Both the position numbers and the translations under genes were made by a program. A stretch of DNA of 64,000 nt from Pratylenchus scribneri (Eukaryota > Nematoda > Chromadorea > Rhabditida > Pratylenchidae): contig JAQSEB010000023.1 in NCBI GenBank assembly GCA_030063045.1, positions 5,456,001 through 5,520,000 of the forward strand. Reading direction: 5' to 3'. A model generated the notes under the pieces. It was not told the DNA's origin. It was given only the letters and a program-made list of their open reading frames with translations, and made no database searches. Below are positions 9,114 through 44,100 of the stretch, in pieces. Each line of letters begins with the position of its first letter. Position 1 is the first letter of the stretch.

Positions 9114-9467
9114 TACCCCAATTTATAATACCTGGATTTTTGCTGAATGGACAAATCGATTTTAATGCGTTCGCATTCCTCAAGCAGCACTTGCATATTT
9201 CGTTTGACACGACGGCATTTATGAGGATCACATTTTGGGGCACATTCTTTGCAATGAGTGCAATCATATCCAAATTGCGTCTTGATCCGTTTGACCATTT
9301 CCTTTCGAACCAGCTCGTCCAAGTCTCGTCCGCCCAACCATTTTCGACCACATGCGGCCAACACTTCGAATTCATTGTTTTCCACTTTCAGAATGGAAAC
9401 ATCCAATGTGCCCCGCCAAAATCCAACACCAGCATTTTGAAACCATCCAAACGCAAATGTTTGAAGC

Positions 9468-9780
9468 TGTGACGATCAAAAGGATTGTGAATTCGAGGAT
9501 TTGGAAAGAATTGGAAAAAACATGAAATATTTTAAATTATTGCATCATTTTTATTGAAGGGGCGGGACTCTCGAGCCAAGCCTCTTCTTTTTGGACTCTT
9601 TCAGTTAGTTAGGCTTGCATCCCCAACTGGCGAGGCTCGAGAGAACCGGCCCTGAATATTTCCCCATTTCTATTTCAATTGAATATTAAATAAATATTTT
9701 GGAATCAATTATTGTATATGATTTGGACATCAAGGGGGAAAGTCAGTTTATCACCTAGTCGGCCATTCGGTTCGGCTACA
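9468..9780 (+). repeat. 5' LTR
   Basis: 313 bp, starts TGTGACGATC and ends CGGCTACA. It contains a 10-bp inverted repeat CTCTCGAGCC ... GGCTCGAGAG around a loop of about 60 bp, and AATAAA inside TTAAATAAATATT, a likely polyadenylation signal. It matches the 3' LTR base for base on reading. Confidence 0.92.
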
Positions 9781-9782
9781 AT

Positions 9783-9800
9783 TGGAGGAGCCGCCCATCT
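9783..9800 (+). promoter_or_regulatory. Putative tRNA primer-binding site
   Basis: TGGAGGAGCCGCCCATCT begins 2 bp after the LTR. The TGG start complements a tRNA 3' CCA end, as expected for a primer-binding site. Which tRNA it matches cannot be decided without a search. Confidence 0.5.
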
Positions 9801-10030
9801 CGTCCCGTCAGTTGAGTGATGTTTCTAATGCTTATTAGTTGCTTTGAATATTTTTAAGATAATTTATTAAAATATTATTAAAGCGTAAATAAATGTGATA
9901 AGTGAAATAAAATAGTGAATGCAAATTTTCCTTTTCTCTTCATTCTTTTCGCCCCAAGCCAAATTAGACAGAGTTGTTCACTGGATTCGCCAAAGGAACA
10001 TTTTCCTAGCGAAAGGGTCTATTTTAAAAA

Positions 10031-10442
10031 TCATGGCCAAAATGCTACCCAATTATGAGCCGGCATAGGAATCCGATAAGTCGGAGTAGGAAGTTCATAA
10101 ATGCCAGTTTTTTGACGCTTTTGGAGGAGAAATAGATGAATCACAATATTGGCGAGCAAAAGGAGAATGAGCAAAACAATTCCAAAACCAATGAGGAAGC
10201 CATAACCAAAAAAGGCCGGAGGCGATGAGCAGAACACGGGTTCATAAAGCCTTGAGAAATACAATAAGATTTACTTTTTCCCAAACACAATACCCAACAG
10301 GATGATAGCAAATCTGATTCCCGGGACAGTCACAATGGATCCCAACCTCCCACCCGAGAAATTGATGAGGAGGAGAAGAATCGGCATCAGAATTAGCGGA
10401 AATAATAGGAAAAAAAGCCAAAATAAAGAATAAGAAGAACAT
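10031..10442 (-). CDS. Antisense small Cys-rich membrane protein in retroelement leader
   Basis: Opposite to gag, a start at 10442 opens a signal peptide (FFLFFILAFFPIISA) and a short Cys-rich ectodomain with the spacing C-D-C-P-x4-C-x5-YC (HCDCPGNQICYHPVGYC). In a second minus-strand frame, 10264-10031, there follows a strong membrane segment (LIGFGIVLLILLLLANIVI) and a tail of about 30 residues ending NWVAFWP. The two frames meet near 10270. A GTAAAT...CAAG stretch there is only 24 bp, too short for a comfortable intron, so either a one-base error or unusual splicing is needed. The ectodomain-membrane-tail order suggests a single-pass surface protein. I recognise no family. It could be a captured host gene or chance ORFs in the leader. 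Confidence 0.35.
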
Positions 10443-10661
10443 TTTGAGAAAAACAATTTTGTTGGGGAAGGTTTTGATAAAATGAAAGTTGAAAAATGAA
10501 GGTTAAAGCGCGAATAGGATAGGAATTTAAAGGGGATAAACATCTGGCAATAAAAGGTTAAGGTTGGTGAAAAGCGAATAATGGGAAAAGTACGAGTTTC
10601 GACCCTGCCCATTGACTCTTTCGATTAATACAAACTAACCCCCAGAGCGGGTCTCATCAGA

Positions 10662-10829
10662 ATGGACTCTGGGGGCGATATAACAATAATTGAAGAAATA
10701 AAAAAGGAAATTAGCCTGAAAAATGATAAATTTGATGGAAATAAAATAAGGGAGAAAATGGAGAATATTTTTGACGTTTTTTTTAGGGAATTGCAATGGG
10801 AATACGGTAGCATTGGGGAAGGAAATTAA
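10662..10829 (+). CDS. Short leader ORF upstream of gag
   Basis: A 55-codon ORF starting at ATG 10662 (begins MDSGGDITIIEEIKK, ends YGSIGEGN). It is acidic and probably helical. Its position between the primer-binding site and gag would fit an upstream leader ORF or a 5' exon of Gag. No family is recognised and it may be chance. Confidence 0.25.
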   Translation: MDSGGDITIIEEIKKEISLKNDKFDGNKIREKMENIFDVFFRELQWEYGSIGEGN

Positions 10830-11344
10830 ATGGCGCCTATTTTGCAGAATAATACATTTTCTGAATGGAAATAGCTATTTCTGGAATTGGAAAATAAAAA
10901 ATGCAATTACGTTTTGGGGACTTCATCGTAAAACCCCTTATGGCCATTCCGTTGGGAGTACTCGCAAACTCTATTAAACTGGAAAAATGGAAATTTTAAT
11001 TAAAGAGAGCTCTCCTTTTTTTGTTTTTACGGTATAATTGTGGCCCAAATTTTGGCCCAATATAAGGAATGGAGGGGGAAGCGGCCCTCCCCTCACTCTC
11101 ATTCCTAAAACCCCCAAATTAAAAAATTCAGCGTTTTCCATTGCGAAAAAAGTATAACCTAAGAGAAAATCCGCAAAAAACTCAAAAATTTTCTCCATCG
11201 AATTGGGCGGCTTCATCTAGTTCAGGAGGAACAAAACAGCCAAAAAAGGAGCCGCCAAGCTCGGGAAACGGTTCGGAGAGCGATCCGGAAGGATCAAGTA
11301 AGCGAAAATTTGGAAAAAGTGGAAAAAGGGAAAGAACTAAGAAA

Positions 11345-12760
11345 ATGGCAGGGGTAAATCAACCACCACCACCACCACCCCAAGCACCCGCAGCAACTTT
11401 AGATGACTTATTAAGGGAATTTCAAGGATTATCCGTTAAAATCGCAAAACCTAAGGTCACGCTAAAACCATTCCTGGGTAGAAAGGACACACGAACTTTT
11501 ACGGCATTTGTGAATGAATTTAATAAAATGGCGAATGCGCTTAATTGGAACCAAGAAGAAATGCTAAGAATGTTACCCCTTTACTTAGCAGAGGAAGAGC
11601 AACTTTTTTATGATTCATTACCGCAGGCGACCAAAGAAAATTGGCAATTATTAACTACCGCGCTAGCACAACATTTTCAAACGGGCGCCTCTATACCGCA
11701 TTTTAGGAGAATGGTGATTCTTAGGCGCCAAAGAGCTGGGGAATCGCCTGCTGAGTTTGCGCTAGCCTTGAAGCATTTAATTGATAAATCTTTCCCCGAT
11801 ACCCAAGGGTTTAATGCGGCTACGCGAGAAGATATGAGCATTGATTATTTTAGGAATGGATTAAAAATGGCCCTTAGGGAACAAGTTAGGCATTTAACTA
11901 AACCGGCAACGCTAACTGAGGCAATTATGCAAGCAACTGAGGAGGAAGAAGCGCTGGCTGAGTTAACTAGGGAAAAATTGGCGAACGCACAGGTAGAACA
12001 AGTAAATCAAATAAACCAAGTAAATGAAGTAAATCAAGTAGGACCCCCTCGCGCGCCTATTCAATCAAGAGTCCAATTCCTACCTAATCGTTTCACCCCG
12101 TATAATAATAACTGGAGAGGTAGGGGAAGATGGCAATCAGCACCACCGCAACCGCAACGCGCAAGATTTTTTCCACAACGTCCTAGATTTGTCCCTCAAT
12201 TCCAACGGGGCGGATTTTCTAACCAAAGGGGATTTCTTCAAAATAGAGGTAGAGGTGGAGGAATGCGCAGAGGTCGGGGAGGATATCGGATTAATGCAGT
12301 TAGGCCACTTTCCCCAGTAATGATGCCACTTTTAACTCTGATCGCGGTTTTAACATTTTTTGTCCCCAACGCGTTTTCTTATCAAATTTGTAGGGAAACA
12401 GCTAAAAGCATAATAGTGGAACCCCCAGAGCGGGCAAATTGCACCTTACCAGCTAAGACCACCATTGAAAAACACGAAATAGAAATTTTTGTTGAGAGAA
12501 AGAGACCTATTATTTTTGAAGGTTTTTCCTGCCAAAAGAAAATAATCAAAGTTTGCACCTTTTCTATCCTAAAACTGAGCAAATCGGATCCTATCGTTAA
12601 CGGTTGGTTAGTCCCGGTAAAATTTGAGGATTGCGTAAAATTAGTTAAGGAAGGTAAATTAGGTAATAAGACTTTGGAAAGAATAGATGAAAGAATTCTG
12701 CGCTCTAAGACTACGGTAGAAGCTAATTGTGGGTTCTGGGGAAAAAAATTGCGACTTTGA
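11345..12760 (+). CDS. gag: Gag polyprotein running in frame into env-like N-terminus
   Basis: The frame is open from 11141. The first ATG is 11345 (MAGVNQPPPPPP). Residues about 15-230 look like a retrotransposon Gag capsid (LKPFLGRKDTRTFTAFVNEF, then FRRMVILRRQRAGESPAEFA), in which FRRMVILRRQRAGES-PAEFA is the major-homology-like stretch. The C-terminal nucleocapsid lacks CCHC knuckles and is instead RGG/FxPQRPR-rich (about 12110-12290), an RNA-binding tail. The ORF then continues without a stop into a second start (ATGATG, 12320-12325) that opens a signal peptide (PLLTLIAVLTFFVPNAFS) and a Cys/Asn-glycosylated segment. TTTCCCCAG just before that ATG could be a splice acceptor for a separate env mRNA. 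The frame ends at 12758-12760, just after an A7 run, while the next frame overlaps it. Confidence 0.8.
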   Translation: MAGVNQPPPPPPQAPAATLDDLLREFQGLSVKIAKPKVTLKPFLGRKDTRTFTAFVNEFNKMANALNWNQEEMLRMLPLYLAEEEQLFYDSLPQATKENWQLLTTALAQHFQTGASIPHFRRMVILRRQRAGESPAEFALALKHLIDKSFPDTQGFNAATREDMSIDYFRNGLKMALREQVRHLTKPATLTEAIMQATEEEEALAELTREKLANAQVEQVNQINQVNEVNQVGPPRAPIQSRVQFLPNRFTPYNNNWRGRGRWQSAPPQPQRARFFPQRPRFVPQFQRGGFSNQRGFLQNRGRGGGMRRGRGGYRINAVRPLSPVMMPLLTLIAVLTFFVPNAFSYQICRETAKSIIVEPPERANCTLPAKTTIEKHEIEIFVERKRPIIFEGFSCQKKIIKVCTFSILKLSKSDPIVNGWLVPVKFEDCVKLVKEGKLGNKTLERIDERILRSKTTVEANCGFWGKKLRL

Positions 12761-15344
12761 TTATGATTATATAGTAACCCGTGGAAAAGTTTATCAAAAT
12801 ATTAAGACAGGGGAAATAAATACTGAAAATGGATTTTTTGAGAATTGCGATCTGTCAAAAAAGTTTTGTAAAACTGAAAATAATACTTTATTGTGGTTTA
12901 ATGATGAGTGGGCCAATCACTGTAAGGTTGAAACTGTAGGAAAATACGAAGCTTTAGTTTTCAAAGATTTAGTCCTAGTAAAACAGTTGCAGGCGGCATT
13001 TATTTTCAGAGAAACTGAAGAGAATTTTGAAGATTTGGAACGCTGCGTAGGTGACAATACTTTCCCTATGGAAAATGGGGTTTTCATATCAATACCGAAA
13101 CTGAGAAGGATTTTAGATGGTGATGAATTCTTTATTAGGCAACCAATAAATTGGGAATTAGGCAACAAAAAGAAAAGAGAGTTGAAAAGTGCTCGTACAA
13201 TGCAACAAATGGCGCCTCTTATGAATTTTTCGCAGCCAACTACTAAAATTGCGCAAATTTTTACTACCCAAAAAATCGAAAATAACAAAAATAACATAAC
13301 TAACGCTACGCGTTTACAAAATTTTGCTTCCTTAGGTACCTCAACCACACAAAAAACCACAAAAACATTTATTTTCACCACTACCACAAAACCAAAAACA
13401 ACCCAAAAAATTATAAAAACATCAATCCTAACCACTATAACCACACCAAGCACTATTACTCAAAAAACTACAAAAAAATTACGCACTACAAAAATAATCA
13501 CACCCAAACCCACCACACCAATACCAGTTTTTACAACTCTAACCACACAAAAAACACCCGAAAATACCACACCCAAAAATTTAGTTTCTTCTACTCATAA
13601 AATTACCACACAAACCACTACGGAAAAAACGGGTTTTACCACTAAATCTAGTCTAAAAACGGATTTACCTACAAAAATTTTACCGCAAAGTACTACCCCA
13701 AATTGGGAAGAAACCGAGTCAACAAAAAACCCGGTGAAAACTAGTACATCTGTGATATTACCGCCAAGTACTACCTCAAATTGGGAAGAAACTGAGTTAA
13801 CAAATACCCCGGTTAAAATTAGTACACCTGCGATAACCACCACAAAAATTATACCACCATTTATTACCCCAAATTGGGAAGGAATTAGGAGACAAATTTG
13901 GACCCAAGATTTTTTGATGCAAGGAAATGGAGTTGATGTGGTCTCTAAAATTATTGATATTTTTGGGTCTGGAAAAAGCATTAAAAGGGAAATTCCTAGT
14001 GAAAATAGATCTTGGACTTCAGAAACTAGTAACACGAATGTTAGGCTACAATATTTACAAAATGAATTGGAAGAAAGCGCGGAAAATAATTCTAATAGCC
14101 TTTGGTCAAGTATTTGCGAGTTACACAATAAGCAAATAGATATGGTTCGCGCGTTTTTACTGCTAGATCCCACGGCGGGAGTGCGAATTTGGCTAAGGCG
14201 AAGTGATATATATGCAAAATATGTGGGAGAGGCAATTGCAATTTTTGAATGCCAACAAGTTCACCCGTTAAAAATTAGATGGGATAAGAAAATAGGGGGA
14301 AAATGTTTTGAAAATGTGCCCATTGAAATTAAGGAAAAGAATAAAACCGAAATATATTTTCTAGTGACCGGTACTAAGGATTTAATAAAATATTCCGCGG
14401 AAATTCCGTGCGCTAAGGTAGAGAAAGCTATTTATAGGGATGAAAATGGTGATTGGATTTCGGATGGTGAGAAAATTTTAGTGGAATCAAAAAATACACC
14501 TTTTGCCTACACCCCCGAAAAAGCGAATATCTATTTTACGGCTAATTCAATTTTTCAATCGGACCTTGAAAATATAGTCGCATCAGTTTCCGTTTTGCAG
14601 TCTTACACTAGTAGAATTAATAAGATTGAGAAAATAATTAGGGAGCAAAATGTTACTAAGGAAAATGCAACTTTTATAGAGGGCGCAGCGGATTTTATTA
14701 GCACAGAAGGCGCGAACATTGCGAATAAAGCTACTAGTTTCTTCTCTAACCCATTAGTTTATCTGTGGGAACTAGTTGATAGCTGGCAAAAATTAATTCA
14801 AGGAATTTGCGGACTTTTATTAGTTATAATTGTGATCGGGGGGCTAATTTATTCATACCCCTGGTACGCCCCATTTTTTCGTTGCTGGATAAGACAAACT
14901 GAAAGGAATAATAGGAAGGCAATTGAGGATAAAAAGGCGGAAGAAAGTGAAATTAACGCAATTACTGTTAAACCCTCCGCCCCACCAATTCAATTACACA
15001 CATGGGTTCCAAAAATCTATAATATTAACTTTAATGAAAATCACCACCAATCGAAAATTCTAACCCGAATTAGCGGAAAGTATTGGGACACGCTAATAGA
15101 TTCCGGCGCTTCCATTTCTCTTTGCAAGAAAAATGTGGCCAAAGGAATAGGAGAAATTTTCCCTTTAGGAGTAATGGACCAACCGTTAGCAAAAGTTGCT
15201 AATGGAGAATTTATTAATTTTATTGGGAAAATTAACGTAAAAATTGAATTGGACGGGATAATGGTTCAAATGACTCTGCTAATTACAGAAGATGAAAATT
15301 GCCCAACTGATATTTTATTAGGGATACTTTTTTCGAAAAATTAA
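12729..15344 (+). CDS. Env-like glycoprotein fused to aspartic protease
   Basis: The ORF continues the glycoprotein begun in the gag frame, entered by a one-base shift around the A7 run near 12745. It has no ATG of its own there. It shows many N-x-S/T sites, a dibasic KKKRELKSA candidate cleavage site (near 13175), a long Thr/Lys/Pro mucin-like stalk (13230-13880), a second KREIP site (near 13985), paired cysteines (14115-14420) and a transmembrane helix (GICGLLLVIIVIGGLIYSY, near 14803-14860) followed by a short basic tail. Downstream of the membrane segment, in the same frame, is a retropepsin with the DSGAS active site (near 15100) and the TDILLG flap-end motif near 15310. A glycoprotein between Gag and protease is not the usual gene order. 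The glycoprotein family could not be identified by eye. Confidence 0.7.
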   Translation: MGSGEKNCDFDYDYIVTRGKVYQNIKTGEINTENGFFENCDLSKKFCKTENNTLLWFNDEWANHCKVETVGKYEALVFKDLVLVKQLQAAFIFRETEENFEDLERCVGDNTFPMENGVFISIPKLRRILDGDEFFIRQPINWELGNKKKRELKSARTMQQMAPLMNFSQPTTKIAQIFTTQKIENNKNNITNATRLQNFASLGTSTTQKTTKTFIFTTTTKPKTTQKIIKTSILTTITTPSTITQKTTKKLRTTKIITPKPTTPIPVFTTLTTQKTPENTTPKNLVSSTHKITTQTTTEKTGFTTKSSLKTDLPTKILPQSTTPNWEETESTKNPVKTSTSVILPPSTTSNWEETELTNTPVKISTPAITTTKIIPPFITPNWEGIRRQIWTQDFLMQGNGVDVVSKIIDIFGSGKSIKREIPSENRSWTSETSNTNVRLQYLQNELEESAENNSNSLWSSICELHNKQIDMVRAFLLLDPTAGVRIWLRRSDIYAKYVGEAIAIFECQQVHPLKIRWDKKIGGKCFENVPIEIKEKNKTEIYFLVTGTKDLIKYSAEIPCAKVEKAIYRDENGDWISDGEKILVESKNTPFAYTPEKANIYFTANSIFQSDLENIVASVSVLQSYTSRINKIEKIIREQNVTKENATFIEGAADFISTEGANIANKATSFFSNPLVYLWELVDSWQKLIQGICGLLLVIIVIGGLIYSYPWYAPFFRCWIRQTERNNRKAIEDKKAEESEINAITVKPSAPPIQLHTWVPKIYNINFNENHHQSKILTRISGKYWDTLIDSGASISLCKKNVAKGIGEIFPLGVMDQPLAKVANGEFINFIGKINVKIELDGIMVQMTLLITEDENCPTDILLGILFSKN

Positions 15345-15345
15345 T

Positions 15346-16173
15346 GACCAAGGATGGGATATTGCATTTAATTTTTTCGATGGAACCATTAAAATTGGAA
15401 AAACGAAAATTCCTTTAATAGCCAATTTGGAAGCTGAGGAAATTAAAACAGAGGAAGAAAATGTAATTAATAAGGAATTAATTGAACTTGATCCGCGAGC
15501 GGACATTTTAGTACCCTGCAAAGAAATGGGAAAGAGGAATGGAGAATATTTCCCAAAAAACTCTAAGGAACCAAGGTTAATTATTCCCGAAGTTCTAAGG
15601 AAAAGGATAATTAGGGAAGCACACGAAGATCCGTTAATGGGAGCACATTTGGGTATCGATAAGACTTTAAATAAAGTGAAAAAAAGATTTTATTGGAAGA
15701 AAATGTTTGGAGATGTTCGCAGGGAAATTAATCAGTGCGCGAAGTGCCAAGAGCGAAAAAGAGGTCCCAAATTTTCGGAACCCTTAAAAGAATTTGAAAT
15801 CCCAACTAAACCGTTTCAAAGAATTCACACGGACATTCTAGGACCCCTTCCCGAATCATTAGAGGCATTTAAGTATATTTTGGTAACGGTTGATAGTTTT
15901 TCTAAGTGGTTAATTGGGTCCCCTTTGGTCAACCAAACAGCTAAAATGGTAGTGGAAGCGTTCACAAATGACGTAGTCACAAAATACGGGATCCCCGAAC
16001 TTGTCATTTCTGACAACGGGAAGCAATTTATTGGCAAGACTTTTACTGAATTAGCTAAAAGCTATGGTTTTCGGCACCTGACCATTGTCCCATACCACCC
16101 GCAAGCGAATGGACAAGTAGAACGCGCGAATCGCGTTATTAGCGATATGCTGGCCAATTACGTTAATATGCAG
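15346..16173 (+). pseudogene. int: Integrase, N-terminal and catalytic part, interrupted
   Basis: The frame resumes one base out of register just after the protease, next to a T6 run near 15328. After about 60 residues that look like the protease tail comes a Gypsy-type integrase: the HHCC zinc finger (HEDPLMGAHLGIDKTL then CAKC), the first Asp in HTDILGPLP, the second in SDNGKQF and the Glu in NGQVERAN with 35 residues between the last two. The core is intact. There is no room for reverse transcriptase or RNase H between protease and integrase. The ORF is cut at 16173 by a MITE with a CAG duplication and reads into it until a stop at 16368. The C-terminal part resumes at 17143. Confidence 0.85.
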
Positions 16174-17139
16174 GGGCCTGGTTCAATTTCCGTCAGATCT
16201 GCGATAAGATTTTACGATATGATGGAAATCATATCCCCGGCGCGCGGTTCAATTAAATCGTATAAAAAATCGTATGCGGCGCATGATTATGACGATCATA
16301 TCGTCATAAAGTTGGTCCAATTAATCATTTTGTCGTATAAGGGATATGATCGTCGCATCAGAGCCTAAATCATGGGCCGCATACGATTTATCATACAAAA
16401 AGTCATAAGCGCGGTTCAATTAATTTTTTTCCACAAATGATAACTCATCATATGATGACAATTCCCTTTATAAAAATCATACGCAGACATATCCATTCCG
16501 AAGCGGATATATGCTCAAATCATATGTATTTAAAAATTCATAAAAAATTTAGAAAAATTTCTAAAATTATTCTGTAAAAAGTATTTTATAGAAAAGACTC
16601 TGCTCTATCTAATGAGCTAAAAATTGAGTAAAAGAACTAAATGTTTGATTTTATATGAATTTTCAAAGAAAATGTTGCCTAATCGGTCCAAATAAATTTT
16701 ATTTTCGTTTATATAAATTTTATAATTATTTTAAAAATATTTTTCATATACTATACTGAAATTTAACGAAATTTAATTGAAAAAATTTTTTACTTCTTTT
16801 TCAAATATTTTTTTATGAATCGATAGAGAAAAATTTTCTTATTAATGTGGTGAAAAAATTAAATTTTTAAATAATAAAATAACAAAGTTATAATTATTTA
16901 AAATTAATTTAAATTAATTAAAAATTCGTCATATGATGCCGGCAAGGGAAAAATCATATCGTATCGTCGAAAACTAATTGAACCAAGCGATTTGTTGTAC
17001 GATTGTATGATTATCATACGCAGCCATCGTATGACGATTTTAGAGACGATTTTACGATATGATTTTTTTTCACTAATTGAACCGGGGATATGACAATCAT
17101 ATATCATATCACAGATCTGACGGAAATTGAACCAGGCCC
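16174..17139. mobile_element. MITE inside integrase, 966 bp, 3-bp TSD
   Basis: Perfect terminal inverted repeats of about 27 bp, starting GGGCCTGGTTCAATTTCCGT, at 16174 and 17139, with the target duplication CAG at 16171-16173 and 17140-17142. Sub-terminal copies of GGTTCAATTA and ATCATATC in both orientations fill the ends. The centre is AT-rich and non-coding. Both flanks of the integrase frame are preserved, so insertion was clean. Confidence 0.88.
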
Positions 17140-17142
17140 CAG

Positions 17143-18024
17143 GGCGATAACTGGCCCGAGTATTTACAACTGGTCATTTTTGCCTATAATACTAGCATTA
17201 ATGAAAGCACGCAACAAAGCCCATTTTACACCATCTTTTTGAGAAACCCAGTTTTACCCATCGACTTGCGCATTGATAACCCAGAATTGGAACTATCGGA
17301 ATATAGGACCCTGAATAAGGAAAATTTAACTAAAATTTGGGATTCGGTCAAAGCAGCAATTAGAAAAGCGCAGGTTAAGCAAAAAGGTTTTGCGGATTTG
17401 AATAATAAGGCAAAAATAACGGAATTACGAGTAGGCGAGTTAGTTATGGTTAAAGTGGAAACCCCCGCTCACAAGTTCGCAGCGAAGTTTAAAGGGCCCT
17501 TCAAAGTTATTAAGGTAGAAAATCCGATGGTTAGCTTGCAAGAATTGGAATCGGGCAAACCCCTTAGGACCCATATTAATAAAATAAAGCGATTCGCACA
17601 AGCAACCCCCTTCGCATTAAGGTCACCTGAAGAAATTGCCACAATCGAAGCTATGCAGTGGGAGGATTTTGCGAGCGGCTCAAACCAGGAACAAAAAGGA
17701 AAAGTGGAAACTTTTAAAATCCTCAAAATAGATGGGAAAAGCCAACTGGTTTATGTGTCCGAAACATATAATGAAAACTATGAGGTAACCAGGGAGGAAA
17801 GTTCCGACGCAATTCATGATGGTATCATCGATGGGGATGGACTAAATTTAGGACCATTATTGGGACTAAAAAACTATTGGGTCAAATACGACACGGAGAA
17901 AAAGGGAATGTTAGAATTCAGATTGGTTGGCCGATTTTCACCATGGGGTATTCCAGCGGCCAGCGGCTGGACCTGGTGGGTGATAGGTAAGTCAGGGATT
18001 GCACAATTAGGAATTACTCCATAA
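17143..18024 (+). pseudogene. int: Integrase, C-terminal part, with long extension
   Basis: Open from the MITE border. It opens with the end of the integrase core (FAYNTSINESTQQSPFY), a typical Gypsy motif, then a helical linker and the SH3-like C-terminal domain (ELVMVKVE, KFKGPFKVIKV, THINKIKRF). About 140 more residues follow, rich in acidic and aromatic residues (YWVKYDTEKKGM, SGWTWWVIG), ending at 18024. This tail has no domain I recognise. It may be an integrase tail or a cleaved extra protein. As a separate piece it has no own start codon. Confidence 0.75.
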
Positions 18025-18069
18025 TTAATTAGTAAACGCGCATTGTAATATAAATCGCTTTCTTGTATA

Positions 18070-18834
18070 ATGACCACGCTCGCAGAATTATCTTTAGAAA
18101 TACTCGTTGATGCATATTATTTTATGGATATTGTAATCAAATTAAAGCTAAAATCTACTGCTAAGGGATTCAAGTCGCTAATCGATAATATTGATAAAAA
18201 TCTAGAGTCACGCTATAAAAGTTTTGAATCAAAAGCACTTAATACATTAAATAATATTACCTATCGCTGTAGATTTCTCGAAAACCCATTAAGAATTTTT
18301 CTTGGACATGTTAAAACTATTTACGTGCTAAGGGAATGTGACAAAATCCTTTTAAGATACCGCGATCGAACCCATAATTTGGATAGGATTTACTTCAAAT
18401 TAAAAAATCAGGACCAAATGTTCATGCTATATTTTGATGATAAATTTTATGACGCGAAGGAATTTCTAGAACAAATAGTTTGGGGGAAAATGAAAGAATT
18501 CGAAATTTGGTACAAGAACCGTTACTCCCACCGCGCATTCCACACATGGTTGCGAGATTTGTTTGAGAATCCTAAACCCTTTTTGGACAAGCTAAATGAG
18601 ATAATGAAGCTGGGTAGAGCCAAGGGATTGACAACCATTTATAATTTTAGCAAGGATAAAAGGTCCTATTTTACTAAAGTGGAGTACGCGCTGCAGGAAA
18701 TTAAGAAGGAATTAAATGCGGGAAAGCGCGTTACAGTAGATGGGATGAATGTGATGGGCCCTGATTCTAATCCTATAGTACGAGAAGCAGAAGGAGAACT
18801 TGAATTTGATAGAGGCAGAAAATCCTGGTTTTAA
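18070..18834 (+). CDS. Accessory ORF 1, F-box-like protein (254 aa)
   Basis: It starts at ATG 18070, 45 bp after the integrase stop. Residues about 5-40 (LSLEILVDAYYFMDIVIKLK followed by STAKGFKSLI) have the pattern of an F-box: Leu-Pro/Ser-Leu-Glu-Ile-Leu, a helix ending in Phe-Met-Asp, then Leu-Lys-x-Ser and Phe-x-x-Leu-Ile. An F-box would bind SKP1 and recruit targets to an SCF ubiquitin ligase. The remainder is helical. It shares with the two following ORFs an AF-x-TWLRDL helix and a C-terminal YNF-x-KDKRSYFTK motif. It ends in an acidic-basic tail. Nearest alternative: a non-F-box helical viral accessory protein. The paralogy with its neighbours is clear, the F-box call is moderate. Confidence 0.7.
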   Translation: MTTLAELSLEILVDAYYFMDIVIKLKLKSTAKGFKSLIDNIDKNLESRYKSFESKALNTLNNITYRCRFLENPLRIFLGHVKTIYVLRECDKILLRYRDRTHNLDRIYFKLKNQDQMFMLYFDDKFYDAKEFLEQIVWGKMKEFEIWYKNRYSHRAFHTWLRDLFENPKPFLDKLNEIMKLGRAKGLTTIYNFSKDKRSYFTKVEYALQEIKKELNAGKRVTVDGMNVMGPDSNPIVREAEGELEFDRGRKSWF

Positions 18835-19240
18835 CTCCTAACTCAGTGAAGAATTTAAACTAAAACAGTACAACCAAACTATACCTTTTGTTAAATAGAA
18901 TTTTTATTTTTAAGCATATTCGAAACTGTTTCAAGTTTCCAATATGCTAAATCCCAAACCAGTATTAATTTGACCTTAAAGCCCAAAACTCGGTTGGCAG
19001 AATGTTTTAGTTTTTATCTTCTTCACCGATTGTACCAACCTTACTTAAAATTTTGGGATTTTTATTTTAAACCGTGAGCCTACCAATCCATCCATAGCAC
19101 CAATCCATCCATTGTCCATCCATTGCTGACGAATTGTCCATCCATCTTTTGAAACATCCACCCATCCATTGCACAACCCGCTTTGGCCAGCCCAACACTG
19201 CTGCTCGATTCCATTGAACTATAAATAAATTGCTATTATT
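18835..19240 (+). promoter_or_regulatory. Spacer with CATCCA repeats before accessory ORF 2
   Basis: 406 bp without an ORF. Its last 170 bp hold about ten CCATCCATC / GTCCATCCAT units (19085-19180), then CTATAAATAAA-type sequence (19218-19229) shortly before the ATG at 19241. A similar CATCCA-rich leader precedes accessory ORF 3, so it may be an expression signal such as a promoter or splice or internal-entry region. Confidence 0.4.
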
Positions 19241-20077
19241 ATGACTGCTCCTAATCTTTCTCTAGATATTTGGGCGGATTTTTACATATTTTGCGACCTA
19301 GTCACTAAGTTAAAGTTATTTGGCACCTCTTATTCAGTACAAGATTTTATTATGGCATTTGATGAGAATTTTCCGGAAAGATTTGAGGACTTCCAAAGAA
19401 AAGCTTTAATCACCCTCCAATATGACATTTACATGTCAAACATAATTAGATTCCCATTATATGCTAACTTTATTAATAGGATAGATACTATCCGGAAATT
19501 AGAAAAATCCGCATTATTCCTCATTTTATCTATCCCTGAAAGGGATAAATACCAATTTGCAATTTTGGATACAAAAAATGGAATTAAAAAAATTCAATTG
19601 AACTCGGGATTCGCCAATACAAAAATATTTTTGGAAAAATTTTTACCCCTAAATATAGAAATATGCAAAAAAAAGAAGAAACCACTAACTAGAGCATACG
19701 CAGAATGGCTAATTACCTTAAAATTGAACACAACCAACTTTTTATCTGACCTAAATAGAGTAGCAAAATACAGAAGGTACCTAAGGAGTCGTTCCTCAGT
19801 CTTTAAAGTTTATAATTTCCAAAAGAAAAAAAGTTGCTTCTTCACAAAAGACTTTTTGGGGAGAAAATTGATGGATAAAGAATTGGGAATCCGAGTAGGT
19901 AATATTCCCGAAGTGGGTGAAAACTTTTTATTAGAACAGGGGGTAGGTTTCTGGTTCACAAATTTAGACCAGTTAATTGTAAAGGATGAACCGGAATCCG
20001 AGGTAGAAATTAGCCCAAAGAGGAAAATGCTAATGAATCGTAATTGCTTAACTTTACTTATGGAGATTTTTGTTTAA
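19241..20077 (+). CDS. Accessory ORF 2, F-box-like protein (278 aa)
   Basis: Paralog of the ORFs on either side. Residues about 3-40 (PNLSLDIWADFYIFCDLVTK, then LKLFGTSYSVQDFI) repeat the F-box-like pattern. A middle helix RAYAEWLITLKLNTTNFLSD matches the RAFHTWLRD and RGFREWLII helices of its neighbours. The C-terminal motif is VYNFQKKKSCFFTKDF. Overall identity to the other two looks low (perhaps a quarter), but order and spacing of the motifs are conserved, indicating old duplication within the element lineage or serial capture. The start at 19241 is the first ATG after the CATCCA-rich leader. Confidence 0.7.
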   Translation: MTAPNLSLDIWADFYIFCDLVTKLKLFGTSYSVQDFIMAFDENFPERFEDFQRKALITLQYDIYMSNIIRFPLYANFINRIDTIRKLEKSALFLILSIPERDKYQFAILDTKNGIKKIQLNSGFANTKIFLEKFLPLNIEICKKKKKPLTRAYAEWLITLKLNTTNFLSDLNRVAKYRRYLRSRSSVFKVYNFQKKKSCFFTKDFLGRKLMDKELGIRVGNIPEVGENFLLEQGVGFWFTNLDQLIVKDEPESEVEISPKRKMLMNRNCLTLLMEIFV

Positions 20078-20197
20078 AGTATTTCACAAACCGTTTATCC
20101 AATTGTTCATCCATCCAATCATCCAGTTGAGCAGGCCATTTATCCAGTCGACCAGACAATTTGTTGTCCATCCGCCTGTTGCTTCATCGACGCCCCA
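20078..20197 (+). promoter_or_regulatory. CATCCA-rich spacer before accessory ORF 3
   Basis: 120 bp, with CATCCATCCAATCATCCAG and TTTATCCAGTCGACC-type units at 20095-20175, resembling the leader of accessory ORF 2. Confidence 0.35.
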
Positions 20198-21010
20198 ATG
20201 CCCTGCAATTTATTAGATATACCAAACTTTTCATTAGAAATATTAGCCGAAATTTATATATTTTTAGACATTGTAACAAAAATGAAATTAACAAGTTCCG
20301 CTAGATTCCTAAAGAATTTTGTGGAAGATTTCGATCCCCAATTAAGCGACCGATTCGAATTTTTCCAATTTAGGGCCCTAACTGCACTCAATAACATTTT
20401 CTATAACGATAGAATGAGTTACTACCTAAACCCCCACAACAATTTTCTAGATACAGTAAAAACCATTCAAATATTGGGGAAGAATGCATTAATTCTACAA
20501 AGGCCATTAATAGGGTGCGAAAAATTATACTTTAGGGATCAAGAAGGAGTAAGGGTCCTAACAATAAATATGCGATTCAGTAAAGCCAAAATGTTTTTGG
20601 AGTCGATGTTACCATCTAAAATTAAAATGTGCAGGAGGGGGGAACCAGACTTAAGAGGATTTCGGGAATGGCTAATTATTCTAAGAGATAAAACGAAGGA
20701 ATTTTTAACTGAATGGGATGAAGTAAACAATATGAGAAGGACCCCTATAATCTCACTATATAACTTTAAGAATAAAAAATGGGGTTTTTATACGGATTGG
20801 GAGTTGGCGGAAAAGAAGATTGTACAAGGGATTCACATGAATATCGACCTAGTACCCTATGGCCCTACGATCTGTAGAGAAGCCCTAAATATACCCTATT
20901 ACTGGGATGTGTTCGGATTTAAGCCCCTACTCTGGAGGGATATTGCAGGCCCATTTTTTGAGGAAGAACACGTTGAGGCTGATGGATCGGAGGACAGCTC
21001 TGACTCTTAA
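20198..21010 (+). CDS. Accessory ORF 3, F-box-like protein (270 aa)
   Basis: The clearest F-box of the three: residues about 9-45 read FSLEILAEIYIFLDIVTKMK followed by LTSSARFLKNFV, close to the canonical LPxEILxxIxxFLDxxxLxxLxxxSxxFxxLI pattern. The middle helix RGFREWLIILRDKTKEFLTE and the C-terminal LYNFKNKKWGFYTDWELAEK motif match the other two ORFs. The C-terminal tail is acidic (FEEEHVEADGSEDSSDS). Predicted soluble, no signal peptide or membrane segment. Placed last before the 3' untranslated part of the retroelement. Confidence 0.72.
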   Translation: MPCNLLDIPNFSLEILAEIYIFLDIVTKMKLTSSARFLKNFVEDFDPQLSDRFEFFQFRALTALNNIFYNDRMSYYLNPHNNFLDTVKTIQILGKNALILQRPLIGCEKLYFRDQEGVRVLTINMRFSKAKMFLESMLPSKIKMCRRGEPDLRGFREWLIILRDKTKEFLTEWDEVNNMRRTPIISLYNFKNKKWGFYTDWELAEKKIVQGIHMNIDLVPYGPTICREALNIPYYWDVFGFKPLLWRDIAGPFFEEEHVEADGSEDSSDS

Positions 21011-22263
21011 GTCGCTTTTGTCTAGTCTTTTTCTTTTCTTACCCCATAATTAATAACCACATTAGAAACATAATGCTCAAATTGTTAAATATTCCCAGTT
21101 GACTTTAATATTTTGTATTTATTTTGTAAACCTGTTAATGGCTTGCTGTTTTGTGCCACCACAACCGCCATCGCCCATAGCCTTTGATCATTATATAAAA
21201 AGAAAAAAAAAGAAAAAACTTATTCTTTATGAAATTGGAAACCTAGTATTTGCCAAATATTTTGTGCCAATAGCCATTGAAGCGATTTGTCCCGGTTGCC
21301 CTGAGCTTAATAGTTGTGAATAATTAGAATTTTTATTTTAATTGTTAAACCAAGGTGGAAGCATTTGCTTCGGCGCCATCCGCCATGGCCAATTCCGCTT
21401 GATTATGAACGTTTTGTGGGCTGCCATCGCCATTCGCTAATAGTTAGCTTAAAAAAATAAAAAGTAAAATATTGTGTTGATTAGTAAATGTTTTGAAAGT
21501 AAAGTAAACACGTAGTAGACAATAAAAAGTAAATCCCTATATTAAATTTTATGATTTAAAGGACATTTTAGTAACAGAAAATGTAATATAGAGATTTGCT
21601 GTATACTTCCTTAATAAGCCAATTTTTTCATTTATTGTCATTTTAAAATTATTTGTAATGAAATTGGCTTATTCAGAATTAGTTTGGAATTGTTTTCGGA
21701 AAACTTTTGGAATCAAAAAACAATTTTCTTATTATTCAATTGTAATTTTATTTGGGAAAACATTTGGGGAATGATGCACAAATTGGAAGAAGAAGAAGCA
21801 CGCGGAATGAACCAGAAATGGCACAAATATCGGAATGATTGGAAGTGAAGATTGGAATGAAGATTGGAAGATGGGAATGGAGGAAAAGGACAAGAATGAA
21901 GTCGACCTAACCATTAACCACACAGTCGAGGATTTGCCCAACCCTCCCTGCAGCAGCAATTCAAAGTGGACGCCAACCCATCATCATCATCAACAGCAGC
22001 AAAAATTCCCATGGCCTACTTTTCCTCTTGATGGCTGAGCATGTGAAGAAGGAAAAAGGGAAAAGGAAAAGAAGAGAAAATTGGCGAGAAATGAAGAGAA
22101 GAGAAGTCAGAGTTGCTCGGCGTCGTAAATCTTTCTGCTCTTTGTGTGCTTGATTGCCTGCGGCCGATTGGAATGTGCGATTGTGAGAAAAGAAAGGAAG
22201 AGAGAAGAGATGATTGAAGACAGCTTGACAATGGCGGCCATTGCCCACCTCGGTGGGGGTCTG
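21011..22263 (+). other. 3' non-coding part of the retroelement
   Basis: No convincing gene. A short ORF (about 21138-21323, starting MACCFVPPQPPSPIA) has Cys and a Lys run but is too small to judge. 21780-22250 is purine-rich with repeated GATTGGAATG/GAAGATTGG words. It runs up to the MULE terminal repeat at 22264. Confidence 0.5.
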
Positions 22264-24716
22264 TTCAGCGTCGCCAGTTCAGCGTCGCCGTTTCAGCGCC
22301 GCCGTTTCAGCGTCAGCCGTTTCAGCGTCCGCCGTTTCAGCGTCCGCCGTTTCAGCGTCGCCGTTTCAGCGTCCAGCCAAAAAGGGGACGTTTCAGCGTC
22401 ACCATTAAAAAATTATTTACCAAGCTTTTAAAAGTATTTTCAAGCATCCTTTACTAAAATAAATGTTAGACTATAAAAATGCAATAAATTTTTAATAATA
22501 TTTATCCAAAATAAAGAGAAATCAAATAACAAAATTGCGACTGGGGGAAATAAAGATGGTGAAAGTAACTTCAAATAATCAAAAATTATAATAATGGAAT
22601 GGAAGATGGATTAACAAAATGTATATTTTTGGTTGAATGAGGACTATGGATCCATTTTATAATTGCTAGAAATGCCGGTCAGAAATTCAATAATATAATG
22701 GTGGAGCCCAATTTGATAATTATGGTCGGCCATCTGATTGGCATTGTTGGGTGGATTGAAACGTTGAACGAGCGTAAGAATTGCGCGGTCGGTTTTGATC
22801 AAATTTTTGTCTTTCTCTCGATGTGGTTCTCCCCGAATACAGAGGGCCATGTCAGCATCCCGCGACTTTTGTTCACGTTTCAATGTATCGATGAAACTAA
22901 AAAATTTTAATTGAAAAAATTTTAAAAAGAAACTACTTCCAAATTGTTGGGTGATGACATGCGAAAGCGCCCTGCAAACGACGGTGACTCGCTTCGGCAA
23001 AATTGTTCGTTCGTGCATCTCCGTTCAATGTACGCTGATGAACATTCCACAATTCCGGCGGAAACTGCGGCAAAGTGCGTGTTCCATCGACCCTAGGTCG
23101 GCCAGTATAATAGGTGATGAACCTATGTCATTAAGATTTTTTTTATTAAAATATAATTAAAATTTACCAATTCATCAGTGGAGCCATTTCGGGAGGAAGG
23201 TGCAGATCCAGCGCATTGATTGCATTTGTGATTTGGTCCAGAGGCAAAAAAGCCATTGATGTTATTAGGCGGCATTGGATTGCAAAATTTGCATCAAGAC
23301 GATAACGCTAAAAAATTTTTAGAAATTTATTCATTAATATTGAATCTAAAATAAACCTGGGTTAAATGTTCCTGTGCTATTTGCTTTTTCATGTTTTGCA
23401 CCAGGTGAAACAAACAGCCACGCAGATCGGCTTCGGGGAATTCAGTGCGGATGGCATTGATGGCTCCTTGCTCATAGTCAACGGAAACTGATTCGGGTGA
23501 AAAGGCCGGCCATTGTTGTTTCACGAGGCGCCAAAATCGTTCATATGTTGATTGGGTTTTGGTGGAAAGAAGCCCATAAAGCACTGGAAAAACCCAATCG
23601 TTCTTTCTGCAAATGTAAATATTTTTTGAATATTATTATTTTATTTACCTTGCAAGAACAACATAAATTTGATAGAACAAATTTGGGGCCAGCGAAAAAG
23701 TTCCATCCACAAAAACTTCCTTCATATTGCCGGACCAATTCGCATAAGAAGAGCGGCCAAAAATCAGAATCCTATAGATTAAATTAAATATCTTTAATTT
23801 CTTTTCATTTTACCTGTGATTTCTGTCATTTTCATTGTAGATTCCTGAATCAGCGAGTAAAAACTGCTCCTGCAGTTCTTCTGTTCTTTGGTACATTTGA
23901 AAACGCTCGGGAATCACCAATTCTTCGAGACTGTTTGGCAAAGCAGGTGGCGGTTCAATTTCACGTCGGGCTCTCTTGACGACCTATTAAAAAATAAAAT
24001 GATTACTATTTCTATTGTTTCCCAACCTTTTTCATTGAATCCTTGTTATTCAATTGGGCAAGCACCGGTGTTGGTATATTCTGCAGAACATTTGTTCTGA
24101 GCATGGCCGGAGCTTCATTGGTATCGATTGCCCTTCTTTTTAGTGCCGTCATGACCTGTTTTTTGCCAACATTTTCTGCTCCAGAGCCTGTGCAGGTATG
24201 CGCTCCGACTTCTTTGAGAACATTGCCTTGAAAATCCGCGTGGAGACGAGCATGACAATTGACGTTTTTGGTTCCAAAATACTCGCATCTCCAAAATTTT
24301 TTGGTTTCATCTTTGCTAAGTTGATCGAAGACATATAAAAATCCATTATGATTCAATTTAGCCTTGTTTCTTTTTGTTTCAATATCCATTTTCTCTAAAT
24401 ATAAAAAATTAGAATAAATAATTTTAAAGCATAAGAATAAAGTGATAAATGGAAAAAATGTGAAATTGGGGCGAAAAAATTAATATTAATGTGAATGGGA
24501 ATACTTCTGCATGATTGAAAAAAGAATAAAAATCAATAATACATAATCTTATATGCTTAATTACGATAAAAATATAGGTGACGCTGAAACGTCCCCTTTT
24601 TGGCTGGACGCTGAAACGGCGACGCTGAAACGGCGGACGCTGAAACGGCGGACGCTGAAACGGCTGACGCTGAAACGGCGGCGCTGAAACGGCGACGCTG
24701 AACTGGCGACGCTGAA
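22264..24716. mobile_element. MULE (Mutator-like) transposon with tandem-repeat TIRs
   Basis: Each end is built from 14-15 bp tandem units of GCCGTTTCAGCGTC: left 22264-22400, right about 24583-24716. The arms are near-perfect inverted copies out to TTCAGCGTCGCCAGTTCAGC. The enclosed minus-strand gene is a FLYWCH/MULE transposase. A clean 9-bp duplication was not found (left flank GGGGGTCTG, right flank ACGTCTTCC), so ends may have been trimmed. It sits in the retroelement 110 bp before the 3' LTR. Confidence 0.85.
22644..24389 (-). CDS. FLYWCH zinc-finger MULE transposase
   Basis: Seven minus-strand exons: 24389-24027, 23983-23814, 23771-23649, 23606-23357, 23307-23168, 23122-22937, 22896-22644. 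The first exon is a FLYWCH finger (FLYVFDQLSK, FWRCEYFGTKNVNCHARLH, GAHTCTG). The catalytic core follows: EVFVDGTFSLAPN with the first Asp, ESVSVDYEQGAINAI with the second, a CLFHLVQNMKKQI helix with the MULE Cys/His signature, then NNFAEASHRRLQ with the likely Glu. All seven exons join in frame on reading and end at TAG 22644-22646, so the transposase may be functional. FLYWCH-MULE fusions are known in animals. Confidence 0.85.
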
Positions 24717-24826
24717 ACGTCTTCCCGCGTGCCCACCTTTGGACTTGTCTGGGAGAGGAGATTGTGATGAGGAGAATGTTGGATCATTGAAGAGGCCGGG
24801 TCGGCTCTTGTCTGGGGAGAGGAGAT
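24717..24826 (+). promoter_or_regulatory. Polypurine tract region before 3' LTR
   Basis: GGGGAGAGGAGA abuts the 3' LTR (about 24814-24825) and is the likely polypurine tract that primes plus-strand DNA. A near copy, GGGAGAGGAGATTGTGATGAG, lies about 70 bp upstream, with the start of the LTR sequence (TTGTGA) partly repeated. Confidence 0.6.
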
Positions 24827-25139
24827 TGTGACGATCAAAAGGATTGTGAATTCGAGGATTTGGAAAGAATTGGAAAAAACATGAAATATTTTAAATTATT
24901 GCATCATTTTTATTGAAGGGGCGGGACTCTCGAGCCAAGCCTCTTCTTTTTGGACTCTTTCAGTTAGTTAGGCTTGCATCCCCAACTGGCGAGGCTCGAG
25001 AGAACCGGCCCTGAATATTTCCCCATTTCTATTTCAATTGAATATTAAATAAATATTTTGGAATCAATTATTGTATATGATTTGGACATCAAGGGGGAAA
25101 GTCAGTTTATCACCTAGTCGGCCATTCGGTTCGGCTACA
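24827..25139 (+). repeat. 3' LTR
   Basis: 313 bp, matching the 5' LTR at every position on reading. It is followed by AAGC, the target duplication, and by the remainder of the HSP70-like exon. Confidence 0.92.
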
Positions 25140-25855
25140 AAGCCATAGAAGTATGCGGCTAAAAATATTAAAAATTTAAATTACCAAACATTTACAAACC
25201 AGCATTTGGCTCTTTGACAAAATGGACTTCCGAAAAACCGGCCATATTTGCTGCACGAATTGTCCCGACCAATTGTTCTTGACCAAATTTCAATGGCACG
25301 GCGATGACTGCTTTGTCGAATTTCTTCACGCCATTAGCCCATTCATCTGCGGTTTCGCGGATTTTTTTGAGTATTTTGGTGGCAATTTCGACTGGTGTTT
25401 GACGAATTGTACGGCCACAATGACGAATTTCGTAAGCTGCATATCCACCAGAATTCACAATCTTGAACTGCTTCATTTTGTCCTGGAATTCTTTGATTGA
25501 ATCCTCTGAAAAAGCCAAGCACATGATGCGCTTCGAATCTGCAATAAAAAATATTTAGCAGGCATTTTATGGTAAATTCAAACCGCAAATGGTATTTTCT
25601 GGATACTTGGCCTTTTGTTGTGCCGTGCTTTCCGACCAACACAACATCACTTCCTTGATCATAGTAAACACATGAATCAGTCAGAGTGCCATCCGCTGAA
25701 AATAATCAACTAATAAAATTTTTGCCATTAATAAACTTACATTCCTCCACATAAAGCACTACCATTACACCTCCGTTGTAAACTGCTGCTACTGTTTTTG
25801 TAGTGCCCAAATCAATACCAATCCATTCTGACATTTTTGACTGATGTTCCGACAT

Positions 25856-41183: not shown

Positions 41184-44100
41184 ATGGATGCCCAAGTGAG
41201 TCAGCGCCAATTTGCGCAATTGGAAAACAATCCCAATTATCGATGCTGTTGTGGGGCAATGTCGGCAGCGCAGGTGGGAATTTGGGGAAAAAAACTTTAA
41301 AATTTATGGATTAATCATTTGTGAAAATCAAAATCAATGAATAATTAAGTATCAGCAAAAAATTTATAATCTCTGGTCATATTCAATTTTCATGCCTTTT
41401 AAGCTACGTTTTACACAAAAGGAGCCAATGCGTTGGCTCCAAGAGGAGTAGAAATTTTGGGGACCTACAACAAATTTTTCTACCTGATCAAAAAATAATA
41501 TTTATACCAAAAAATAGAGCAGACTCAGACTTTATTGCATCGGAAAATATAATTTTACAATTTTCTGACGAACAGAAACATTAATAAAAATTTGGAGCCA
41601 GCACCGGAGCAAACGATTCAAATTGTTTAAATCATTGGCTCCGGTGTTGGCCTAGACATTGCTCCAAAAATTCTAATAATTTTTTCATTCGTCAGAAATT
41701 TCTCAAATTACATATACTATCCGATGCCCTAAAGCCTGCTCTATTTTTTGGCATAAAATATTATTTTTTGATCAGGTAGAAAGAATTTTTTGAAGGTCCC
41801 CAAAAATCCTACTCTTTTTTGAGCCAACGCGTTGGCACCATTTGTATAAACGTAGCTTTTTGTTCACGATTTTAGTAAATATTTTTTATAATAAATTGTT
41901 TTTTTTATATAATTCCATTTTTAAGGGTGCCAATATTTTTGCCATCATTTCGCTGGTCTTCCATTTCTTCTTGACATTGCTTTCATTTGTCATTTGGCTT
42001 CTGCTGCCCTATGACATCGTGACTCTCTATCAAATTTTGATTGCAATTTTGGTGCTCGTCGGCCATTCCAAACACAGCCCGGATCTTTATTTGGCCAGCC
42101 TCATTTTACAGGTATATCATGTTACTTTTCAATCAAAAAATAAAATTGGAATTAGTTTAGTTTTAAATTTTAATGAGAGAAAATGATTAGGTATTTAGGT
42201 TCATGCGAAAAATGTAGGACTATGTAGAAAAACATAAAACATATTTTGGCGAACATTTTTCGTAAAAGGGAAAACACATTTTGGCGAACATTTCTAAAAA
42301 AGTAAACACATTTTGGAAAACACATTTTGGCGAACATTTCTGAAAAGAGAAAATATAAAGAAAACACATTTTGGCGAACATTTCTGAAAAGGGAAAACAT
42401 AAAGAAAACACATTTTGACGAACATTTCTAAAAAAGAAAACACATTTTGGAAAACACATTTTGGCGAACATTTCTGAAAAGAGAAAATATAAAGAAAACA
42501 CATTTTGGCGAACATTTCTGACAAGGGAAAACATAAAGAAAACACATTTTGACGAACATTTCTAAAAAAGAAAACAATTTTGGAAAACACATTTTGGCGA
42601 ACATTTCTGAAAAGAGAAAATATAAAGAAAACACATTTTGGCGAACATTTCTGAAAAGGGAAAACATAAAGAAAACACATTTTGGCGAACATTTCTAAAA
42701 AAGAAAACACATTTTGGAAAACACATTTTGGCGAACATTTCTGAAAAGAGAAAATATAAAGAAAACACATTTTGGCGAACATTTCTGAAAAGGGAAAACA
42801 TGAAGAAAACACATTTTGGCCAACATTTCTGAAAAAGAAAACACATTTTGGAAAACACATTTTGGCGAACATTTCTGAAAAGAGAAAATATAAAGAAAAC
42901 ACATTTTGGCGAACATTTCTGAAAAGGGAAAACATAAAGAAAACACATTTTGACGAACATTTCTAAAAAAGAAAACACATTTTGGAAAACACATTTTGGC
43001 GAACATTTCTGAAAAGAGAAAATATAAAGAAAACACATTTTGGCGAACATTTCTGAAAAGGGAAAACATAAAGAAAACACATTTTGGCGAACATTTCTAA
43101 AAAAGAAAACACATTTTGGAAAACACATTTTGGCGAACATTTCTGAAAAGAGAAAATATAAAGAAAACACATTTTGGCGAACATTTCTGAAAAGGGAAAA
43201 CATGAAGAAAACACATTTTGGCCAACATTTCTGAAAAGGGAAAACATAAAGAAACACATTTTGACGAACATTTCTGAAAAGGGAAAACATAAAGAAATCA
43301 CATTTTGACGAACATTTCTGAAAAGAGAAAACATAAAGAAAACACATTTTGGCGAACATTTCTGAAAAGGGAAAACATGAAGAAAACACATTTTGGCGAA
43401 CATTTCTGAAAAGGGAAAACATAAAGAAAACACATTTTGACGAACATTTCTGAAGAGAAAACATAAAGAAAACACATTTTGGCGAACATTTTTGTAAAGA
43501 GAAAACATAAAGAAAACACATTTTGGCGAACATTTCTGAAATGGGAAAACATAAAGAAAACACATTTTGGCGAACATTTTTGAAAATGGAAAACATGAAG
43601 AAAACACATTTTGGCGAACATTTCTGAAAAGAGAAAACATAAAGAAAACACATTTTGGCGAACATTTTTGAAAAGAGAAAACTTAAAGAAAACACATTTT
43701 GACGAACATTCTGAAAAGGGAAAACATAAAGAAAACACATTTTGGCGAACATTTCTGAAAAGGGAAAACATAAAGAAAATACATTTTGACGAACATTTCT
43801 AAAAAAGAAAACACATTTTGGAAAACACATTTTGGCGAACATTTCTGAAAAGAGAAAATATAAAGAAAACACATTTTGACGAACATTTCTGAAAAGGGAA
43901 AACATAAAGAAAACACATTTTGGCGAACATTTCTGAAAAGGGAAAACATAAAGAAAATACATTTTGACGAACATTTCTAAAAAAGAAAACACATTTTGGA
44001 AAACACATTTTGGCGAACATTTCTGAAAAGAGAAAATATAAAGAAAACACATTTTGGCGAACATTTCTGAAAAGGGAAAACATAAAGAAAACACATTTTG

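Follow-up and report, generated by a model that had tools for sequence, protein, structure and literature searches.

A tandem family of accessory genes, perhaps F-box-like, carried by a Ty3/gypsy-type retroelement of Pratylenchus scribneri

Three accessory genes between integrase and the 3′ long terminal repeat

The window analyzed here, a 64,000-bp stretch of the genome of the nematode Pratylenchus scribneri (C23:5456001–5520000, C23 being contig JAQSEB010000023.1), contains a Ty3/gypsy-type long terminal repeat (LTR) retroelement at positions 9468–25139, which carries three consecutive open reading frames (ORFs) downstream of its integrase. The lineage name rests on domains: the element has LTRs with short target duplications, the order protease, reverse transcriptase, ribonuclease H (RNase H), integrase, an RNase H of the RT_RNaseH type and an H2C2 integrase. 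The 5′ LTR (9468–9780, plus strand, 313 bp, with TG and CA ends) is identical at 313/313 positions to the 3′ LTR (24827–25139, plus strand), and the same four bases, AAGC, flank the element as target site duplication at 9464–9467 and 25140–25143. The element is young. Its integrase zinc finger and core (PF17921, E 4.9e-20; PF00665, E 1.6e-17) lie in an open frame at 15322–16175, and the integrase C-terminal part and the end of pol at 17140–18024, both on the plus strand. Reverse transcriptase and RNase H are absent from the window copy and present at the corresponding place in a sister copy on contig C50 (RVT_1, E 9e-30; RNase H, E 3e-34), which has a frame of 2684 amino acids (aa). An LTR retroelement had been named as the carrier of the three ORFs in an earlier note on this DNA, and the identical LTRs, the target duplication and the integrase domains bear this out.

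The three ORFs, all on the plus strand, encode proteins of 254 aa (gene 1, 18070–18834), 278 aa (gene 2, 19241–20077) and 270 aa (gene 3, 20198–21010, counted from its ATG; the frame is open from 20078), with the coordinates and lengths originally reported. Their stop-to-stop frames of 261, 282 and 310 aa exceed the longest frame found on either strand when the same stretch was simulated 1000 times under a first-order Markov model (median 93, 99th percentile 173, maximum 235 aa). By sequence comparison the three are paralogues, as had been proposed: genes 2 and 3 are 31–33% identical to gene 1, 42 of 315 alignment columns are invariant, and tblastn among the three genes gives E values from 3e-14 to 3e-30. 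The N-terminal and C-terminal blocks described earlier are present, the former reading SLxI....Y.F.D.V.K.KL and the latter, in its exact form, YNFxxxKxx[FY][FY]T; the middle motif AxxWL is not, and the three proteins have R[AG][FY]xxWL in its stead. With their relatives described below, these accessory (cargo) genes encode proteins of 249–278 aa, each with its own ATG, in sets of one to three tandem paralogues per element. The distance from the pol stop to the start of gene 1 is 45 bases in the C23 and C50 copies and 67 bases in a copy on contig C90.

The location between integrase and 3′ LTR is the usual position of env, and the earlier note had implied that env is missing from the element. 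An env-like gene is nevertheless present, between gag and protease. A gag-like open frame (11123–12760, plus strand; Retrotrans_gag, E 0.015, below the cut-off) is followed by an ORF (12720–15344, plus strand) that encodes an env-like viral fusion glycoprotein (PF24664, Monjiviricetes_fusion in Pfam; E 7.9e-11, above its cut-off) and, downstream in the same frame, an aspartic protease (gag-asp_proteas, E 3e-4, below the cut-off). Besides five close copies, 42 further genomic places match this ORF across its glycoprotein part at 25–35% identity. The env-like ORF has one strong transmembrane segment (hydropathy 2.73, residue 692), whereas hydropathy reveals none in eight cargo proteins (maximum 19-residue hydropathy 0.65–1.46). 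A glycoprotein encoded upstream and cargo proteins lacking a membrane anchor make it very improbable that the cargo ORFs are degenerate or alternative envelope genes, despite their position. A hydrophobic, signal-like segment occurs in the C-terminal part of the gag frame, at the start of the env-like region (19-residue hydropathy 2.2, residue 396); this segment and the single transmembrane segment suggest that the gag/env-like/protease polyprotein might thread through a membrane.

Accessory genes recur in divergent elements, and two of them are under purifying selection

Relatives of the three genes were sought in the whole genome (227 Mb). A DNA search with the three genes found a C50 locus, 90% identical over genes 1 and 2, and two short matches to the spacer, on C203 and C90. 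A search with the gene 3 protein yielded seven matches, namely three on C23, two on C50, one on C90 and one broken fragment on C12; a search with the C90 protein recovered the six intact members only. All six intact members found in the genome lie in retroelements, three in the C23 copy, two in the C50 copy and one in the C90 copy. The C50 counterparts of genes 1 and 2 are 93% and 88% identical at the aa level, the C90 counterpart of gene 1 is 43% identical, and a block containing most of gene 3 (20028–21000) is not in the C50 copy. The copies with the same three ORFs that the earlier note had proposed to look for were thus found in part: members occur in two other element copies, but two and one at a time. 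Since the number varies (3, 2, 1), three genes are not a fixed feature of these elements.

The fragment on C12 (L011, C12:543690–543929) is broken by stops and gene 2-like, with 49% identity over 83 aa. It sits in a very AT-rich stretch (18% GC) and perhaps derives from an older element.

The carriers are separate insertions, in part of different lineages. The LTR of the window element occurs at five genomic places: two on C23, two on C50 (94%) and one solo LTR on C159 (85%; C159:818775–819063). The two LTRs match at every position within the C50 copy (314/314) and within the C90 copy (365/365), and the target duplications read AAGC on C23, GAAC on C50, ATCT on C90 and CCCA at the C159 solo LTR. 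The C90 integrase is only 62% identical to that of the window, and the two elements therefore represent distinct lineages. Five copies have env homology of at least 43% (C23, C50, C90, C203 and C175), and cargo genes are present in all three in which the end of pol is preserved (C23, C50 and C90). In the C203 copy, a deletion extends from the integrase zinc finger to within the spacer that follows the cargo gene; the C175 copy breaks off in the reverse transcriptase, and in the 3.5 kb beyond that point cargo matches reach E 0.17 at best. In 27 more distant Ty3-type loci (L020–L046, each covering 1.5 kb past the integrase match), no cargo match was found at E 1 or better, with pol extending beyond the locus end in many of them, so that a gene further down is possible there; the genome searches with cargo proteins likewise gave no match in these loci.

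In a large protein set, which may hold few nematode proteins and from which the rarity of the family cannot be read, two relatives were found among 4252 candidates. Both lie on one metagenome contig of 4053 bases and are 89–95% like genes 1 and 2 of C23 and C50; a close relative of the cargo genes thus exists elsewhere. Conservation of the ORFs at two other genomic loci and on this contig, the separate target duplication of each genomic locus and the frame lengths given above exclude chance ORFs or an assembly artefact, for which nothing speaks except the damage to the window copy.

Between the C23 and C50 copies, the ratio of nonsynonymous to synonymous substitution rates (dN/dS) is 0.23 for gene 1 (bootstrap 0.12–0.46) and 0.17 for gene 2 (0.10–0.27). 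Both genes are thus under purifying selection, an outcome of the comparison among copies that had been suggested earlier. The corresponding values are 0.08 for the integrase core (bootstrap 0 to 0.20) and 0.13 for the integrase tail (0.07–0.22), so the cargo genes are conserved somewhat less strictly than pol. Synonymous divergence (dS) between the two copies ranges from 0.11 to 0.34 along the element, a hint of recombination between lineages.

These results bear on the idea that host F-box genes were captured as passengers and have no function for the element. The host has many F-boxes (at least 21 matches to PF00646 and at least 78 to PF12937), and the element holds other host-like sequence, an antisense ribosomal-protein exon, both of which would suit such a capture. 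It is at odds with the purifying selection between element lineages and with the occurrence of cargo genes in elements whose integrases are only 62% alike. Genome searches with two members, which depend on a loose first look, found no host copy, and tblastn of eight members against five host F-box loci gave a best E of 0.16. We regard passenger capture as improbable. The outcome that the earlier note had set against its own reading, namely other copies without the ORFs and host exons captured once, does not apply, because members are present in two other element copies and purifying selection acts on genes 1 and 2; the six intact members are all in elements.

An F-box-like N-terminus

For the N-terminal region of the cargo proteins, which the earlier note had called F-box-like, profile-profile comparison is the line of evidence in favor. 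A profile of eight cargo N-termini aligned by hhalign with a profile of 17 host F-boxes scores 22.3 (P 2.2e-4, HH probability 45%), the alignment starting in register at residue 1 and spanning 54 columns, to about residue 50. The score is 22.8 with 20 further host F-boxes, which are partly kin of the first 17, and 22.9 with all 37 (HH probability 57%). Every control scores lower: 100 column shuffles reach at most 13.6, 200 shuffles of a trimmed 37-sequence profile at most 12.9 (20.2 unshuffled), and the reversed profile 11.0. Four other segments of the cargo proteins score at most 11.5 against the F-boxes; the maximum is 13.5 both for 67 pol windows against the F-boxes and for the cargo profile against 67 pol windows, and 14.5 for 101 low-diversity pol windows. 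Seventeen homeodomains, another three-helix domain, give 11.3.

Several observations weigh against an F-box. Scans with hmmscan of 3+5 whole cargo proteins and six N-termini found neither PF00646 nor PF12937, the two models that detect the host F-boxes counted above, and for the 3+5 whole proteins no Pfam family was above E 0.09. A hidden Markov model built from the 17 host F-boxes reports only two of eight cargo proteins, at −1.3 and −0.5 bits, values reached by 945/2000 and 461/2000 shuffles, respectively; each of the 17 host F-boxes, when left out, scores 16–48 bits. The profile match is also uneven. The gene 2 clade alone scores 10.8 against the F-boxes, which is control level, the members without the gene 1 clade 15.5, barely above the controls, and single cargo sequences 8.8–16.0; HH probability with the whole protein is 9–15%, and removal of one host sequence (L077) lowers the score to 18.4. 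The F-box idea itself arose after a reader's look at the sequence. The F-box signature includes Leu-Pro at the start of helix 1. This pair is absent in all eight members, which have Leu-Ser, Phe-Ser or Leu-Ala instead; its proline is also missing in some host F-boxes, e.g., L057 and L076. AlphaFold models have a mean predicted local distance difference test (pLDDT) score of 51.6 for gene 1 and 43.5 for the gene 3 core, the poorer of the two, and structure searches with the gene 1 model, at that low mean, gave no clear match. Both low-confidence models have three N-terminal helices, in gene 1 at residues 9–24, 28–41 and 45–65, with pLDDT there mostly below 60.

An F-box at the N-terminus is plausible, not proven. 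Curated models, Leu-Pro and the single-profile search fail while the profile-profile match tops every control, and we therefore use the label F-box-like and do not assign the proteins to the F-box family.

Possible functions and comparison with known systems

The reading we favor, at about even confidence, is that the cargo ORFs are a retroviral accessory-gene family, perhaps F-box-like, whose genes travel with the element and occur in quite different element lineages. In this reading, a diverged F-box likely spans the first ~54 residues and would dock on an SKP1-like (SKR) protein of the host. The remainder, for which low-confidence prediction gives a mixture of helix and strand and which has the conserved RxxxxWL and YNFxxxK motifs, might bind a host protein and bring it to an SCF ubiquitin ligase; alternatively, it might use the ligase to tune proteins of the element itself. 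Were the N-terminus a genuine F-box, a cargo protein would link SKP1 to a protein of the host or of the element, whose stability would change. The benefit may be survival of the element in the germ line, and divergence among the cargo copies would let them track different targets. Among several conceivable roles, one is to counter small-RNA silencing in the germ line.

More specifically, it is possible, and we put it forward tentatively, that a nematode retrovirus-like lineage encodes its own tandem-amplified, diverged F-box family, which hijacks host SCF ligases and turns them on germ-line defence or on restriction factors of other kinds. Such a family would be a retroelement counterpart of polerovirus P0 or of those lentiviral accessory proteins that hijack cullins. 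If this is true, an animal retroelement would attack or use ubiquitin-mediated protein turnover, and the family would offer a handle on the conflict between nematode germ lines and retroelements. In this element the env position holds a small family of genes that has paralogues and relatives in divergent elements, shows measurable purifying selection and prompts a specific, testable biochemical guess, SKP1 binding.

The main rival explanation, which we also consider possible if somewhat doubtful, is a regulator that helps to export or package the element's own RNA and has no link to ubiquitin, the F-box resemblance reflecting a common three-helix pattern. The model for such a regulator is CERV of Cer1, a Ty3/gypsy element of C. 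elegans; passages of PMC10309623 describe it as a 517-aa protein with a cysteine loop, translated from a spliced mRNA that includes gag exons. Like CERV, the cargo genes are non-envelope ORFs between pol and the 3′ LTR, and a similar role would fit the excess of K+R over D+E in seven of eight cargo proteins (46 vs 36 in gene 1) and the lack of a match to any curated F-box model. Unlike CERV with its spliced mRNA, the cargo genes form sets of one to three tandem paralogues, whose ORFs open with an ATG of their own shortly after pol. CERV, compared here by its description in passages of PMC10309623, needs its cysteine-rich loop, whereas the cargo proteins have only two to four cysteines, none among the invariant columns of six aligned members, and no conserved cysteine-rich loop. 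The F-box-like N-terminus, with a profile match above all controls, likewise sets them apart from CERV.

Other elements with additional genes provide a further frame for comparison. For plants, as passages of PMC10309623 state, it is well known that LTR elements may have in the env position an ORF whose function is unknown. Bdelloid rotifer LTR elements have, in the parts of PMC5408684 that describe them, gained family-specific third ORFs, captured genes for a GDSL esterase and a DEDDy exonuclease; the window element resembles them in carrying gained ORFs, but those are enzymes of known families, whereas the cargo genes, arranged as a tandem family, match no Pfam family and encode a putative F-box. 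Anakin, a mosquito BEL-Pao element with a chuvirus glycoprotein in the account consulted (PMC7642597), is likewise an LTR element whose glycoprotein is related to those of negative-strand RNA viruses; unlike this member of the Pao lineage, the window element is of the Ty3/gypsy type, has its glycoprotein between gag and protease and carries accessory genes in addition. Atlas virus, a hookworm belpaovirus with the order Gag-Pol-Env and a class II phlebovirus-like env according to passages of PMC9094657, shares with the window element a nematode host, identical LTRs and one long polyprotein with env; it differs in that no accessory genes are mentioned for it in those passages.

F-box or F-box-like proteins of viruses include polerovirus P0, poxvirus proteins and baculovirus Lef-7, as parts of PMC6593998, PMC8399815 and PMC6105029 indicate, and PMC3588083 and PMC8399815 both deal with F-box proteins of viruses. 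Those are carried by RNA or DNA viruses, whereas the carrier here is an LTR retroelement, with a putative F-box and a proposed binding to SKP1. By title and the start of the abstract, no F-box gene family encoded by a retroelement is evident among the papers that searches of open-access literature for such genes brought up.

Damage to the window copy and other features

The window copy is damaged: it has no reverse transcriptase, its integrase is split, and a DNA transposon is nested in it. A 964-bp insertion with terminal inverted repeats of ~35 bp (inverted ends 94% identical) splits the integrase at 16176–17139; it is absent from the C50 copy, in which the integrase C-terminal part belongs to a common stretch of 91% identity. 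The nested DNA transposon, also absent from C50, lies at 22251–24729 (approximate ends) and has perfect inverted repeats of 140 bp (22264–22403 and 24577–24716) and an apparent 9-bp target duplication. It contains a minus-strand frame at 23327–23632 that presumably encodes a MULE-like transposase. As the LTRs are identical despite these insertions, the insertions may have occurred very recently, or else the element, already damaged, was mobilized in trans.

All four copies with a 3′ region (C23, C50, C90 and C203) share an antisense fragment of a host gene for a ribosomal protein, namely of its first exon; the gene reads like RPL39 (L39-like). It lies on the minus strand at 21364–21432 in the window and at ~3853–3939 of L002 (C50), ~2286–2352 of L004 (C90) and ~940–986 of L003 (C203). 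Within it, 26 bases are identical in the four copies and the host locus C59:1628565, with one mismatch in C23:1793174. The fragment is conserved in this way although the spacer after gene 1 (18832–19122), common to the C90 and C203 copies, is only 72–73% alike between C23 and either of them.

In the genome as a whole, the exact 22-base SL1 leader occurs at 227 sites and its reversed control at none, which marks the host as a nematode. Outside the element, the window contains a long repeat array at 42294–55124 (KCSPKCVFFMFSLFRNVRQ... repeats), the minus strand of which is open in many overlapping frames; similar repeats occur near the host L39-like locus at C23:1793k (L124).

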